DNA of 64,000 nucleotides from Geminocystis sp. NIES-3708 (GTDB lineage Bacteria > Cyanobacteriota > Cyanobacteriia > Cyanobacteriales > Cyanobacteriaceae): NCBI RefSeq assembly GCF_001548095.1, contig NZ_AP014815.1, positions 3,595,656 through 3,659,655 on the forward strand. The letters are read 5' to 3'. Of the stretch, positions 40,893 through 46,384 are shown in pieces. The position numbers and the translations under genes were made by a program. The notes under the pieces were generated by a model, which saw only the letters and a list, made by a program, of their open reading frames with translations, made no database searches and was not told the DNA's origin. Positions within the stretch are counted from its first letter, which is position 1; every line of letters starts with the position of its first letter.

Positions 40893-43778
40893 CTATAAAA
40901 TTTCCACTGTACCTTGATTACCATTTAATCGTACTAATTGACCATCTTTAAAAATTCCTGTGGCATGATGAATATCCATCACTGCGGGAATTTCATATTC
41001 TCTAGCAATAATTGCACCATGGGAAAGTTTGCCCCCCACTTCAGCAATAATTCCTCCAGCTTGAGCTAAAATTGTTGTCCAACCCGAATCAGTATAAGGC
41101 ACAACAATAATAGTTTCACGGCTTATTTCAATAGCTTGTGTTAGAGTTGATATTATTTTTATTTTACCTTCGATAATTCCTGCACTAGCACCAATACCAA
41201 TAAAACGTGAATTGGAAGAAATAGGAGTATATTTATACATTAAATCAATGTTAGGTGCTTTACCATAAATTAAGTAAGGAATAGAGGTAATTTTTTTGCT
41301 TTCTTGCCATTGATATTGACGTTGTTGGATTAATTCTATTAAGTTAATTTCATTATTTTCTTGTTCAATAAAATTACTAATTTCACCTAAGGTTAAAAAG
41401 AATATATCTCCTTCTTTTGTTAAAATATTCTCTTGCAACCATTGTTTTTCTAAGGCTAAAAAACTATAACGTAAATAAGCTAATAATTGTGAATAAATTT
41501 CGGTAACTTTGCCTTTTAAATTGAGTCTTTTTTGTACAGCTTTTATCTGCCAAGTAACTTTATTTATTTGTTTAGTAGCAATAGAATTATTTTCTTTTTC
41601 AAAAACCAGTTTAGTAAACATTACTTTCATTTCTCTTGCATTTTCTTGCCAACGAGAAACTGAAATATCTGTGGCAACTTCACTTAGATAACCATATTTA
41701 TCTAACCATTTATCAAGACGATTTAAGACACATTCTCCTTCATTTAATTCAGCTAAATAAGCAAAGAAAGCTGCATAGTTATCAAAATCTAAATTATTAA
41801 ATTCCTTATTATAAATTAATTTTTTGGTGTCAATAGCAATATTTTTTAAAGCATTAAAAGAAGAAATTTCTGGAATATCATTATTATCTAAATCATGGGG
41901 AGACACTTTTAAAATTGCTTGTCTTAAAGCATAACTAAGAGGAGAAAAAATACTATAGTAAGTTGCTTTTTTTAGAGTGTCTAAAATACTCTTAATTCGA
42001 TTTAATAATTCTTGAGAGGATAAAATATCAGGATTAATCTCTTTTAATTCATCTAAAATAGGAGCAAAATATCGATCATGATCATAAATAAAATCAGCTT
42101 CTAATTTTAACTCTTTTTTGAATAATCTCCATAAACCAAATAAATTTTTGAAAGTTGCTATTAAAGGCGGTTTTGTAAACTTACTGCCACGGGTAAGAAA
42201 TTCTAAACTCTCTGGGGGTAAACCCATTAACAGAAAAATATCTCCTAAAAGGGTAGCATTAAAATATGCTCGATGATAATGTAAGGTAGCCGTTTGATTA
42301 AAATCGAAACCAGCAGCTTTTTTGCCTAATACAATAGCGAAAATATCACCCCAAACTCCGCAGGTAAGAGGTTGATTAATTGACCATGTTAATGATTTTA
42401 TCACTCCGGGGATAACTTCAGCGGCAATTTTTCTCGTCCATAAAGGTTGTAATGTGGTGATAGGACGAGTTTGCAATAACCAAATTTTTTCACCGTCATA
42501 AGTCCATTCTATATCTTGAGGAACTCCTTTGGATATATTTTCAATTTCTCTAGCAATTTTAGCGATAGTAATTAAAATATGAGCAGGAATTTTCTCGTTT
42601 TCTTCTCCTTCTAAAGTTTCTTCAGGAAAGTTAACTTTATATTGTTTTGGGGTAACTTCTCCTGATACTAAAGGTAAACCCATTCCCTCAATGGCTTCTA
42701 TACAAACGCAGTCTTGTAATTGATTAACAGGATCTCTACTAAAAGCTACACCTGAAAATATACCATTAATTTGTTCTTGGATAATAACAGCAATGCCTTG
42801 ATCTTTTTTATGCCTACTTTGACGATAATTGATAGCAATCGAGGTATCATAGGAAGAAAGACAATTGATGATAGCCTGTTGTAAACTAGGAATATCATTT
42901 ATATTTAAAAAACTTTCATAAATTCCCGCCGCAGAAGCATTAAGAGAGTCCTCGTCAAGAGCAGATGATCGTACTACTAAAGGCTTACTAAAAGAAGGTT
43001 GAAAAAATTGACTTAATTTACCAATATCATCTCCAGCTTTAACTACCCAGCCTTTAGGAACATTGTAACCCCATTTTGTAAGTAAAGATAAATTGGCTGC
43101 TTTAGCACCAACTTGTGCAGGATTTAAAGATTCATTTAAACTGAGAATACCAAAATCTCCTCGAAAAAAGCGAAACATTTTAGCTGACTCTGGGTTAACT
43201 TGACTGGTTTGTAAATCTAAATCGTCAGGCATTCGCCGATAAATTACTGTTAATAAACTAGCTAATGCTATTGTCATCAAAATATATTCTAATTCATTAA
43301 TTCTTTGAGCGGATAAAATAACTACCATCAACACAAGAATTCCGACTCTTCCAGTTTTTTTTTCTCGCCACAGAGTAAAGCTAACACCACCGATGAGAAA
43401 AATTAACAATGCAGCTATAGGATTGTGAGTAATTATACCCCAAGTAACATTCGTTGCCCCCGCACCTTTTCCGCCCCAATAGCGCCCCATCACTAATGCT
43501 ATGATGGCAACAATTTCCCAAGTTGAGCCAAAGGGAAAAAATGTTCTTGTCAATAAGACTACAGCAATACCTTTTCCTGCTTCGCATAAAACGGCTAAAA
43601 TTCCCGCTAATTTTCCTCCATGATAGAAAGCGGCTGAGACAGAAATATTCCCCGTGCCTAATTTTTGCAAGTTTTTCCCTGATACTGCATAGGTAAACCA
43701 ATCAATGAGGGGTATTGCACCGATTATCGGACTAATGAATAATATTAACAATACGCCCCAAAGTTGTGTGATTGTCAT
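40893..43778 (-). CDS. PlsY-like membrane domain fused to ATP-grasp / His-domain phosphotransferase
   Basis: A 961-residue fusion. Residues 1-182 are a multi-helix membrane domain resembling the acyl-phosphate glycerol-3-phosphate acyltransferase PlsY: GTGN (41-44) and WGGKGAGATN (101-110) recall its loops, but the usual GSGNxGATN and the His before GGKG are altered. Residues 224-480 are a PEP-synthase-type ATP-grasp domain (GAKAANL 224-230; RSSALDEDSLNASAAG 270-285; QDIEWTYDG). A helical region of about 400 residues follows, and the C-terminus is a swivelling phosphohistidine domain with GGKLSHGAIIARE (His920). There is no PEP/pyruvate TIM barrel, so the order ATP-grasp, helical, His domain is that of rifampin-phosphotransferase-like enzymes. 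It lies 23 nt downstream of the aminopeptidase gene, probably one operon. The substrate is unknown. Confidence 0.8.
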   Translation of the reverse strand: MTITQLWGVLLILFISPIIGAIPLIDWFTYAVSGKNLQKLGTGNISVSAAFYHGGKLAGILAVLCEAGKGIAVVLLTRTFFPFGSTWEIVAIIALVMGRYWGGKGAGATNVTWGIITHNPIAALLIFLIGGVSFTLWREKKTGRVGILVLMVVILSAQRINELEYILMTIALASLLTVIYRRMPDDLDLQTSQVNPESAKMFRFFRGDFGILSLNESLNPAQVGAKAANLSLLTKWGYNVPKGWVVKAGDDIGKLSQFFQPSFSKPLVVRSSALDEDSLNASAAGIYESFLNINDIPSLQQAIINCLSSYDTSIAINYRQSRHKKDQGIAVIIQEQINGIFSGVAFSRDPVNQLQDCVCIEAIEGMGLPLVSGEVTPKQYKVNFPEETLEGEENEKIPAHILITIAKIAREIENISKGVPQDIEWTYDGEKIWLLQTRPITTLQPLWTRKIAAEVIPGVIKSLTWSINQPLTCGVWGDIFAIVLGKKAAGFDFNQTATLHYHRAYFNATLLGDIFLLMGLPPESLEFLTRGSKFTKPPLIATFKNLFGLWRLFKKELKLEADFIYDHDRYFAPILDELKEINPDILSSQELLNRIKSILDTLKKATYYSIFSPLSYALRQAILKVSPHDLDNNDIPEISSFNALKNIAIDTKKLIYNKEFNNLDFDNYAAFFAYLAELNEGECVLNRLDKWLDKYGYLSEVATDISVSRWQENAREMKVMFTKLVFEKENNSIATKQINKVTWQIKAVQKRLNLKGKVTEIYSQLLAYLRYSFLALEKQWLQENILTKEGDIFFLTLGEISNFIEQENNEINLIELIQQRQYQWQESKKITSIPYLIYGKAPNIDLMYKYTPISSNSRFIGIGASAGIIEGKIKIISTLTQAIEISRETIIVVPYTDSGWTTILAQAGGIIAEVGGKLSHGAIIAREYEIPAVMDIHHATGIFKDGQLVRLNGNQGTVEIL

Positions 43779-43801: not shown

Positions 43802-46384
43802 TTAATGGTTAATCGCTTCTAGTTTTGCTAAACGACTTTGCAAATCCTGATTTTCCTCCTTCAATTTATCAATGGCTTTTTGTAAGTCTTTAGAAGTTTT
43901 GTCTTTACCTAGTTTTTCTCGCACTTCGTTAATCGCTTCTTCCGCTCTGCGTTTAACTCTTCCATCCGGGGTGGTATCTGCTAAATTTATTAACAGAGCA
44001 ATGGCTTCAGAGTCTTCTATATGACTTAAACCACTTATTAATGCCATTTGAGTCAAAAAGAAGGTATCTGTCAATATGGACTCAAATCTTTGCAGAATAA
44101 GAGTTAGCTTATCAGGTTTTTGACCGTGAGCGATTACGCCTAGGCAACGAATAGCAGTTAAACGTAAAGGTTGAGGAATACCTAATTCTGTGTATTTAGC
44201 AATTATATCAGCAGCTTTTTCATTGGTTTTGAGATGACTTAAACCATTAAGAGCAGATGATCTGATAATTTCATTCCAACCGCTTTTTTCTGCTAAAATT
44301 ACTTCTAATAGTTCAATGACTTCTGATTGTTTACTCTCTAAAGTGCCTGTTGCTAATTTGCCTAATCCAAGAATAGCAGAGGATTCAACATAATAACTTT
44401 CATCACCATTGATAACGATATTTTTTAAAGCTTGATAGCTAGATTCAGTTTTATGGTGAGTTAAGGCTTCTACAATTGTTCTTCTAATTTTTGCATCATT
44501 ATCGTTAATATGAGCTATTAATACGTCAATAGCTTGATTTAGCTTAATTTTGCCCAATTGTTTAATTATTTCAACTTTTACCCCCCAAAATTTCTCTTTT
44601 TCGAGGGATTCTGTTAAGGTTTTTACTGCTTCTAAGTTACCCTTTTTCCCAATAGCGATCGCCGCATAAATACGAGATATGACATTAGGATCATGTTGTA
44701 ATTGAGTTTTTAACTCACTAAACCCATATTCTAATTTAACGGTTTTTAAATGATAATTACCGACATCAAAGGAGATAAAATCAGGCTTTTTTGTTAAAGG
44801 AAAATAAAATACTTGTTCTGGTTGATTAAGTTTAAGAGAAATGAGTTTTAAGTCTGGTTTTTCTCCTTCTTTTATATAACCGAAAGCAAAAGGTATTTTT
44901 AAGTCAAATAAATCCTTAAATTTACCGTTTTCTTCTTTAGCTTGAGTTTGCTTAATAGTTATAATAGCTAAGTTTGATTCACTATCCCAACTATAATTAA
45001 TTTTAAAATCTGGATGTCCTCCTCTAAAAACATACTGATCAAAAAGAGGGCTTAAATTATAACCAGTTGAGTTTTCAATTGCTCTTAATAAATCAATAGT
45101 TTCTACAGTTTTATGGGCATTATCATTAACGAAAGTATGAATAAATTTATCAAATAATTCCTCTCCTAAAATCCCTCTAATCATGTGATAAACACAAGCA
45201 CCTTTTTCATATAAATGGCGATCGTATAATTCTATAGCTTCTCTGTAAATATTAGTAACAATGGGACGACGATAACGAGAAGAATCTTCATGTAAATAAT
45301 TTCGAGCCTCTTTTAATAAATAATATGCACCCTCATCATTACTGTATTCGTGTTCAGTCCATAATACTTCTGCATAGGAAGCTGCACCCTCTTTAATCCA
45401 TGCGTGACTCCAATGTTTGATTACCACTAAATCTCCAAACCATTGATGTGCCAATTCATGGGCGACTAAACTTTCTGTGTTGCGGTTGTCAAGGGATGCT
45501 TTTTCGTCTAATAAACAGCGATCAGTTAACAAAGTAGTAGATGTGTTCTCCATGCCGCCGAAAATAAAATCATCGACACAAACTTGAGCATATTTAGTGT
45601 AAGGATAAGGATAACCATATTTTTGACTGAAAAATTCAATCATTTTTGGGGTTTTACCCATACTAATTTTGGCTTCAGTTTCTTTTCCTTTTTCCACATA
45701 ATAATTAACAGGAATTTCTTGATATTTATCTTCTATTTCCGCAAATTTTCCTACTGCCAAAGTCATTAAATAAGTAGGGTGAACTTGAGGCTGTAACCAA
45801 TGATAGATTTTATTTTCTCCTATTTCTTCTGTTTTAAATAACTCACCGTTAGAAATTGCAATATAATCTGAAGGTACTGTTACTCTAATCTCAGATGTTG
45901 TCAATTGCCCTGGATAATCGAAACAAGGAAACCAGTATCGAGAATCTTCATCTTCTCCTTGTGTCCAAACTTGGCTTGGTTTGTCAGGATAATACTCATC
46001 AGGTGCGATAAAATATAAGCCTCGTTGGGGTTTTTCTTTACTATAGGTGATCGCGATTTTCAAATCTTCTTCAGTGGTAGGCTGTAAAAGATTAATTGTG
46101 ATAATTTCACCGTTATATTCAAACGCTTGACTTATATTATCAATCAAAATTGATTCGATGGTTAAATCGATGGCATCGAGACTTAATTGAGTAATATTAT
46201 TTCTCACGGGAGTTAAAATAATCGTACAAATACCCCTAAAACTTTGATGAGGAATATCTAAATCTAAATCAAGAAAAATGTGTTGAACTTGTCCGTAACG
46301 ATCAGGATTATAATGAGGTTTCGCACCGGGTAACTCAAAACTTTTTTTTTCTTCAGTGTCAAAATAATATTGCAAATGACTCAT
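43802..46384 (-). CDS. M1-family zinc aminopeptidase with HEAT-like C-terminus
   Basis: A cytoplasmic metallo-aminopeptidase. The exopeptidase motif is GGMEN (276-280) and the zinc site HELAHQWFGD (309-318) with the third ligand Glu332 in KEGAASYAE. The N-terminal beta-domain is normal. After the catalytic and beta-sandwich parts, residues about 575-825 are HEAT-like helical repeats (ISRIYAAIAIGKKGNLEAVK, then similar units each of 30-40 residues), ending in a short coiled coil (DKLKEENQDLQSRLAKLE). Other M1 enzymes of this type, such as those near leukotriene A4 hydrolase, have comparable armadillo-type tails. The gene heads the operon with the PlsY-like fusion. Confidence 0.93.
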   Translation of the reverse strand: MSHLQYYFDTEEKKSFELPGAKPHYNPDRYGQVQHIFLDLDLDIPHQSFRGICTIILTPVRNNITQLSLDAIDLTIESILIDNISQAFEYNGEIITINLLQPTTEEDLKIAITYSKEKPQRGLYFIAPDEYYPDKPSQVWTQGEDEDSRYWFPCFDYPGQLTTSEIRVTVPSDYIAISNGELFKTEEIGENKIYHWLQPQVHPTYLMTLAVGKFAEIEDKYQEIPVNYYVEKGKETEAKISMGKTPKMIEFFSQKYGYPYPYTKYAQVCVDDFIFGGMENTSTTLLTDRCLLDEKASLDNRNTESLVAHELAHQWFGDLVVIKHWSHAWIKEGAASYAEVLWTEHEYSNDEGAYYLLKEARNYLHEDSSRYRRPIVTNIYREAIELYDRHLYEKGACVYHMIRGILGEELFDKFIHTFVNDNAHKTVETIDLLRAIENSTGYNLSPLFDQYVFRGGHPDFKINYSWDSESNLAIITIKQTQAKEENGKFKDLFDLKIPFAFGYIKEGEKPDLKLISLKLNQPEQVFYFPLTKKPDFISFDVGNYHLKTVKLEYGFSELKTQLQHDPNVISRIYAAIAIGKKGNLEAVKTLTESLEKEKFWGVKVEIIKQLGKIKLNQAIDVLIAHINDNDAKIRRTIVEALTHHKTESSYQALKNIVINGDESYYVESSAILGLGKLATGTLESKQSEVIELLEVILAEKSGWNEIIRSSALNGLSHLKTNEKAADIIAKYTELGIPQPLRLTAIRCLGVIAHGQKPDKLTLILQRFESILTDTFFLTQMALISGLSHIEDSEAIALLINLADTTPDGRVKRRAEEAINEVREKLGKDKTSKDLQKAIDKLKEENQDLQSRLAKLEAINH

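Follow-up and report, generated by a model that had tools for sequence, protein, structure and literature searches.

A single protein of 961 residues encoded in the window, the 64,000-nucleotide stretch of the Geminocystis sp. NIES-3708 genome analysed here, combines a membrane domain of the PlsY fold with a soluble dikinase that resembles rifampin phosphotransferase, hereafter abbreviated as RPH. Neither fold is new, nor is the phosphohistidine mechanism; the combination of the two folds is widespread among cyanobacteria, and our literature search retrieved no paper that describes this fusion or names its function (nor anything relevant on DUF3419 together with UbiA). We tentatively favour, with slightly less than even confidence, the interpretation that the fusion joins a membrane-bound ATP-dependent dikinase to a PlsY-fold site with a new specialization, and that it would make and use a phosphorylated lipid or acyl intermediate with an acceptor other than glycerol-3-phosphate (G3P).

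Domain organization of the fusion protein

The open reading frame extends over positions 40893-43778 on the minus strand and begins with ATG, the plus strand across the same interval being rich in stops. The sequence-only reading had already proposed one chain of this length here, without giving its strand, and the architecture it described is borne out by Pfam searches and structural matches. Pfam recognizes G3P_acyltransf at residues 15-181 (65 bits against a cut-off of 24.1), PPDK_N at residues 261-388 (139 bits) and PEP-utilizers at residues 887-956 (71 bits), the latter two also above their cut-offs. From these matches, the structural comparisons and the conserved columns of the alignment we delimit, all on the minus strand, a PlsY-fold membrane domain (residues 1-186, positions 43221-43778), a short linker recognized from the secondary structure of the model and the aligned ranges (residues 187-207, 43158-43220), an ATP-grasp domain (residues 208-445, 42444-43157), a helical domain where RPH has its acceptor, or rifampin-binding, domain (residues 446-850, 41229-42443; also supported by hhalign) and a swivelling phosphohistidine domain (residues 855-961, 40896-41216), which matches the His domain of 2e28 with Z 19.4. 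The latter closes the chain at residue 961, and neither Pfam nor the predicted model contains a PEP/pyruvate barrel in the 961-residue chain, as had been anticipated. The motif around His920 (GGKLSHGAIIARE) and a second motif (RSSALDEDSLNASAAG) are likewise as originally described.

Structural comparison was carried out with an AlphaFold2 model built from 50 relatives (mean pLDDT 80), the pTM of which is only 0.56, so that the relative placement of the domains is not readable from it. Aligned from this predicted model with VIA-align, residues 6-207 superimpose on the acyl-phosphate form of PlsY (5xj7) with Z 18.6 and 2.9 Å over 180 residues, no other structure matching the membrane domain better than this acyl-phosphate-bound enzyme; a lack of PlsY similarity in residues 1-182 is thus ruled out. 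Residues 209-961 align with RPH 5hv1 with Z 24.8 over 656 residues, in keeping with the domain order previously suggested. Over the entire RPH chain the rmsd is 11.8 Å because the domains are arranged differently, as can be expected when an enzyme swivels; single domains fit at about 1.4-2.5 Å. Listeria RPH structures (5fbs, 5hv1, 5hv2) are also the PDB entries whose sequences best match the soluble half (E about 3e-49), and hhalign pairs this half with RPH at E 4e-46.

(Of note, an M1 aminopeptidase with HEAT repeats lies at 43802-46384, upstream of the fusion gene at a distance of 23 bases and on the same strand. Its pairing with the fusion gene does not recur in relatives, and across the 41 loci compared only the fusion itself recurs beyond a few loci; the neighbourhood gives no hint of a pathway.)

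Conserved residues of the dikinase half

Among 50 family sequences, Lys226, Arg270, Ser272, Glu276, Asp277, Glu424, Arg438 and His920 are invariant or nearly so. Invariant Lys226, Arg270, Glu424 and His920 correspond to Lys22, Arg117, Glu297 and His825 of RPH, Lys226 having been assigned by eye from the GxK motif rather than by the aligner; the numbering of the L. innocua RPH present in the alignment runs one behind that of the published L. monocytogenes enzyme. His920 (41019-41021, minus strand), the residue predicted to be phosphorylated, is matched to RPH His825 in both phmmer and hhalign alignments and is conserved in all 50 sequences. Within the helical domain, Arg449, Glu454, Arg751 and Lys755 are also invariant or nearly so. 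The spacing of Arg751 and Lys755 fits that of Arg666 and Lys670 in RPH, of which they could be the counterparts in a stretch that is not confidently aligned, with a hydrophobic residue at the place of RPH Glu667; for the latter, whose role is to position the phosphohistidine, no clear equivalent is seen in the fusion.

Residues kept and lost in the PlsY-fold site

Residues of the membrane domain were mapped with hhalign using Aquifex PlsY as reference, column counts being taken over the same 50 family sequences, and were read against the published roles of PlsY residues in the G3P clamp and in acyl-phosphate contacts (PMC5700162). The sequence-only reading had found the PlsY motifs partly altered, which can now be specified residue by residue. 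The GTGN segment (residues 41-44, 43647-43658, minus strand), counterpart of the start of PlsY motif 1, retains PlsY Asn37 as Asn44 in all 50 sequences and replaces Ser35 by Thr42, a change that in PlsY itself (S35T) leaves 17% of the activity (PMC5700162). The position of PlsY Thr41 is Ser48 in the window protein and either Ser or Thr in 48 of the 50 sequences; T41S costs PlsY about half of its activity (PMC5700162). Tyr52 (43623-43625, minus strand) stands without exception at the place of Arg45, part of the clamp for the G3P phosphate, and Arg99 (43482-43484, minus strand), equally without exception, at that of His92, which contacts acyl-phosphate. GKGAG (residues 103-107, 43458-43472, minus strand) corresponds, in shortened form, to the GGK104GVA phosphate-hole loop, and 46 of the 50 sequences have K or R at the Lys104 position. 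Ser142 has no counterpart, and His177 and Asn180 are replaced inside a PDDL segment. The clamp set of Ser35, Arg45, Lys104 and Asn180, with Ser142 and His177, is therefore not preserved. This mapping leaves the acyl-phosphate side of the site partly recognizable and the G3P side rebuilt; with Arg in place of His92 and the phosphate loop shortened, acyl-phosphate binding may have been lost too.

The membrane domain is nevertheless highly conserved, with invariant Thr42, Asn44, Tyr52, His53, Glu66, Lys69, Arg99, Thr109, Asn110, Trp113, Asp185 and Asp186, and the mean share of the majority residue over the 50 sequences is 0.72 here, compared with 0.70 in the ATP-grasp domain, 0.64 in the middle domain and 0.76 in the His domain. 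Such conservation appears to be more than an anchor would need, even if the conserved residues could serve folding or regulation instead. It bears on the possibility that the kinase works on a soluble small molecule, with the membrane part merely fixing its location. The known RPH relatives, which act on rifampin and phenols (PMC4844700, PMC12167813), lend this possibility some weight, but the strong conservation of polar residues in the membrane loops and the lack of any known reason for a membrane placement make it quite improbable.

Distribution of the fusion and coexistence with canonical PlsY

Searches with the membrane domain as query produced matches in 177 of 291 sampled genomes of the class, spanning 101 of 131 genera, nearly all of them in open reading frames of 940-1085 residues, so that similar long proteins do exist in other cyanobacteria, as the sequence-only reading had supposed. 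Across 292 genomes of the phylum, full-length relatives occur in the greater part of the order and in several further families of the class; none were found in family f25 (small genomes, picocyanobacteria-like in size), g8, most of g33 and several other groups. Carriers include Nostoc, Anabaena, Fischerella, Calothrix, Microcystis, Crocosphaera, Spirulina, Oscillatoria PCC 10802 and Leptolyngbya. Where present, the gene is mostly single-copy, and a sizeable minority of genera is without it. Conservation as one open reading frame across genera dismisses a join created by an assembly artefact. In one genome (G215) the halves are adjacent genes of 186 and 809 residues in different frames, 2 bases apart; the kinase half of this genome falls inside the fusion clade, indicating either a late fission or an assembly frameshift, and the halves belong together either way.

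The genome containing the window also encodes a separate canonical PlsY (177 bits, C1:170090-170641) with the usual GSGSTGATNVLR, GGK and RHRTNIQR motifs, settling a check that had been proposed with the original reading. Fusion-bearing genomes regularly show two PF02660 matches, the best near E-50, and canonical PlsY co-occurs in essentially every one of them, the two exceptions being G051 and G064. Replacement of canonical PlsY by the fusion was considered for both and rejected, since the neighbouring gene runs into a run of N in G051 and the orthologues of neighbouring genes are also missing in G064, as a missing block would give. (The N run, itself observed only in G051, from C1:1496001 onward, covers the neighbourhood of canonical plsY and mimics the loss of an essential gene in surveys.) The presence of a separate canonical enzyme implies that the fusion is not the ordinary G3P acyltransferase, G3P acylation being covered elsewhere in essentially every carrier. 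A second G3P acyltransferase bearing a regulatory or energising kinase would agree with the PlsY fold and with a Pfam score over the cut-off. We consider it very improbable, however, because canonical PlsY is already present and because the fusion retains none of Arg45, Ser142, His177 and Asn180, four residues that mutagenesis has tied to G3P binding or to activity (PMC5700162).

Two further associations were evaluated among 80 genomes. DUF92, the phytyl-phosphate kinase for which the fusion might have been a stand-in, is found in all 80, fusion or not, and gives this idea no support. A dependence on the operon containing DUF3419 (see below) was rejected, DUF3419 being present in only 7 of the 80 and absent from the window genome.

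Joint decay of the two halves

In 126 distinct family members the residues listed above for both halves hardly vary, and three lineages depart from this pattern. In L033-L035 of family f9 the GTGN segment and the Glu-Asp pair of the ATP-grasp domain are lost and Gln replaces His920. This full-length form is found in one genus (L033:7411-10155, L034:8455-11157 and L035:8936-11638), and judged by its residues it is a maintained pseudoenzyme. The 590-residue paralogues of genus g57 have lost GTGN, the Glu-Asp pair and the whole acceptor domain, as well as the His in one case; they consist of PlsY-like, ATP-grasp and His domains with degraded motifs, and their reading frame is intact in three genomes (L040:8329-10104, L206:2422-4203 and L207:1904-3682). 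L041 shows a partial joint loss, with GTGN gone and the ATP-grasp motif changed. The joint loss of membrane and kinase motifs is what two cooperating sites would give, and we take it as support, not proof, because three events are few and the relaxation of a useless protein would look alike.

The same pattern bears on the possibility that the PlsY-fold domain has no catalytic activity and serves as an anchor that recruits lipid, leaving the dikinase alone to phosphorylate a lipid alcohol or another hydrophobic molecule presented by the membrane. The loss or replacement of several PlsY active-site residues agrees with it, as does the fact that RPH holds its substrate mostly by hydrophobic contacts (PMC4844700), but polar residues of the membrane loops that are invariant in all 50 sequences and decay jointly with the kinase do not; we regard it as a serious, if rather doubtful, alternative.

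Non-fused relatives and a putative lipid operon

The top-scoring non-fused relatives, with about 29-33% identity, belong to small-genome members of a sister group in the phylum (L036, L037 and L179-L181). They are part of a six-gene run encoding, in order, a UbiA family protein, the RPH-like protein, DUF3419 (the family of the betaine-lipid enzyme BtaA), a CTP_transf_1-like membrane protein that scores under its Pfam threshold, a GNAT protein and an AMP-forming ligase. The same order is found on a plasmid of the alphaproteobacterial Roseinatronobacter; the run, found at L036:2755-10741, L037:909-8827, L179, L180, L181 and L177:523-8507, occurs in sister-group genomes and on the alphaproteobacterial plasmid, and it looks like an undescribed lipid pathway employing an RPH-type dikinase. 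Partial runs with UbiA and mostly DUF3419 adjoin non-fused RPH-like paralogues in cyanobacteria (L185-L187) and in other genomes (L190, L200 and L201). A phylogenetic tree separates the fusion clade, a single group with a long branch, from the operon clade, their sister relation being weakly supported. The operon suggests that the RPH-like branch is able to serve lipid chemistry and does not itself identify the substrate of the fusion.

Proposed function

In RPH and PEP synthase, ATP phosphorylates the catalytic histidine, yielding AMP and Pi. By analogy with the RPH mechanism, ATP would phosphorylate His920 of the fusion with release of AMP and Pi, after which the His domain would swing and deliver the phosphate to an acceptor held in the helical domain. 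This acceptor would most likely be a membrane lipid or fatty acyl group, given a tether of about 20 residues and PlsY-fold loops as conserved as the kinase. The PlsY-fold site may then take over the phosphorylated product, binding it as PlsY binds acyl-phosphate, and, with the G3P clamp gone, would transfer it to, or act on, a partner other than G3P. The cooperation of the halves through a phosphorylated lipid intermediate, as first envisaged in the sequence-only reading, is strengthened by invariant active-site residues in both halves and by their joint decay in three lineages; the hand-over between the sites is what we infer. Stated in full, namely a two-site enzyme in which the β-phosphate of ATP, carried by a swivelling phosphohistidine, serves to activate either a membrane lipid or a free fatty acid and the product is handed to a non-G3P PlsY-fold site, in a new lipid-modifying reaction general to most cyanobacterial genera, the proposal is possible, if rather doubtful.

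The most specific form of the interpretation favoured at the outset, contained in the likelihood we assign to that interpretation, would have the dikinase use ATP to convert free fatty acid into acyl-phosphate and the PlsY-fold domain pass the acyl group on to an acceptor other than G3P, so that PlsX is bypassed. It would account for acyl-phosphate-bound PlsY being the closest structure to the membrane domain and for the retention of Asn37 and of a hydroxyl at the Thr41 position. Those RPH-type enzymes whose substrates are known, however, phosphorylate hydroxyl or enol groups; we know of no documented carboxylate phosphorylation in this superfamily, and with no candidate acceptor either we find this form unlikely. 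If the two sites do cooperate, cyanobacteria would have an undescribed lipid activation outside the acyl-ACP/PlsX route and an undescribed lipid product. Metabolic models would be misled by annotating these proteins simply as glycerol-3-phosphate acyltransferase or as PEP synthase.

Comparison with known systems

The fusion shares with PlsY (5xj5-5xj9) the seven-helix fold, Asn37, the hydroxyl at the Thr41 position and a glycine-rich phosphate loop, but differs in having Tyr for Arg45 and Arg for His92, in lacking Ser142, His177 and Asn180, in its shortened loop and in the attached dikinase. With PEP synthase and PPDK it has in common the ATP-grasp and His domains, without their PEP/pyruvate barrel. 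The prodigiosin ligases PigC and RedH belong to the same three-domain superfamily, yet the fusion scores 192 bits against their cut-offs of 1300 and 1350, they have no membrane domain, and the PigC-like L178 lies outside the fusion clade in the tree. The two-component dikinase HpeHI (PMC12167813, 9goj) shares the RPH-type mechanism acting on small molecules, the ATP-grasp domain of HpeI matching that of the fusion with Z 18.2, but is composed of two soluble chains and uses phenolic substrates (PMC12167813). RPH itself (5hv1/5fbs) has, over the whole soluble half, the same succession of ATP-grasp, helical acceptor and swivelling His domains together with the same ATP-site residues and catalytic His. 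The fusion nevertheless shows only about 25% identity with RPH, falls short of the NCBIfam RPH equivalog cut-off of 999 with 225 bits, and has invariant Glu454 where the L. monocytogenes enzyme has Gln337, other acceptor residues being changed or not alignable; it also carries a membrane domain in front.
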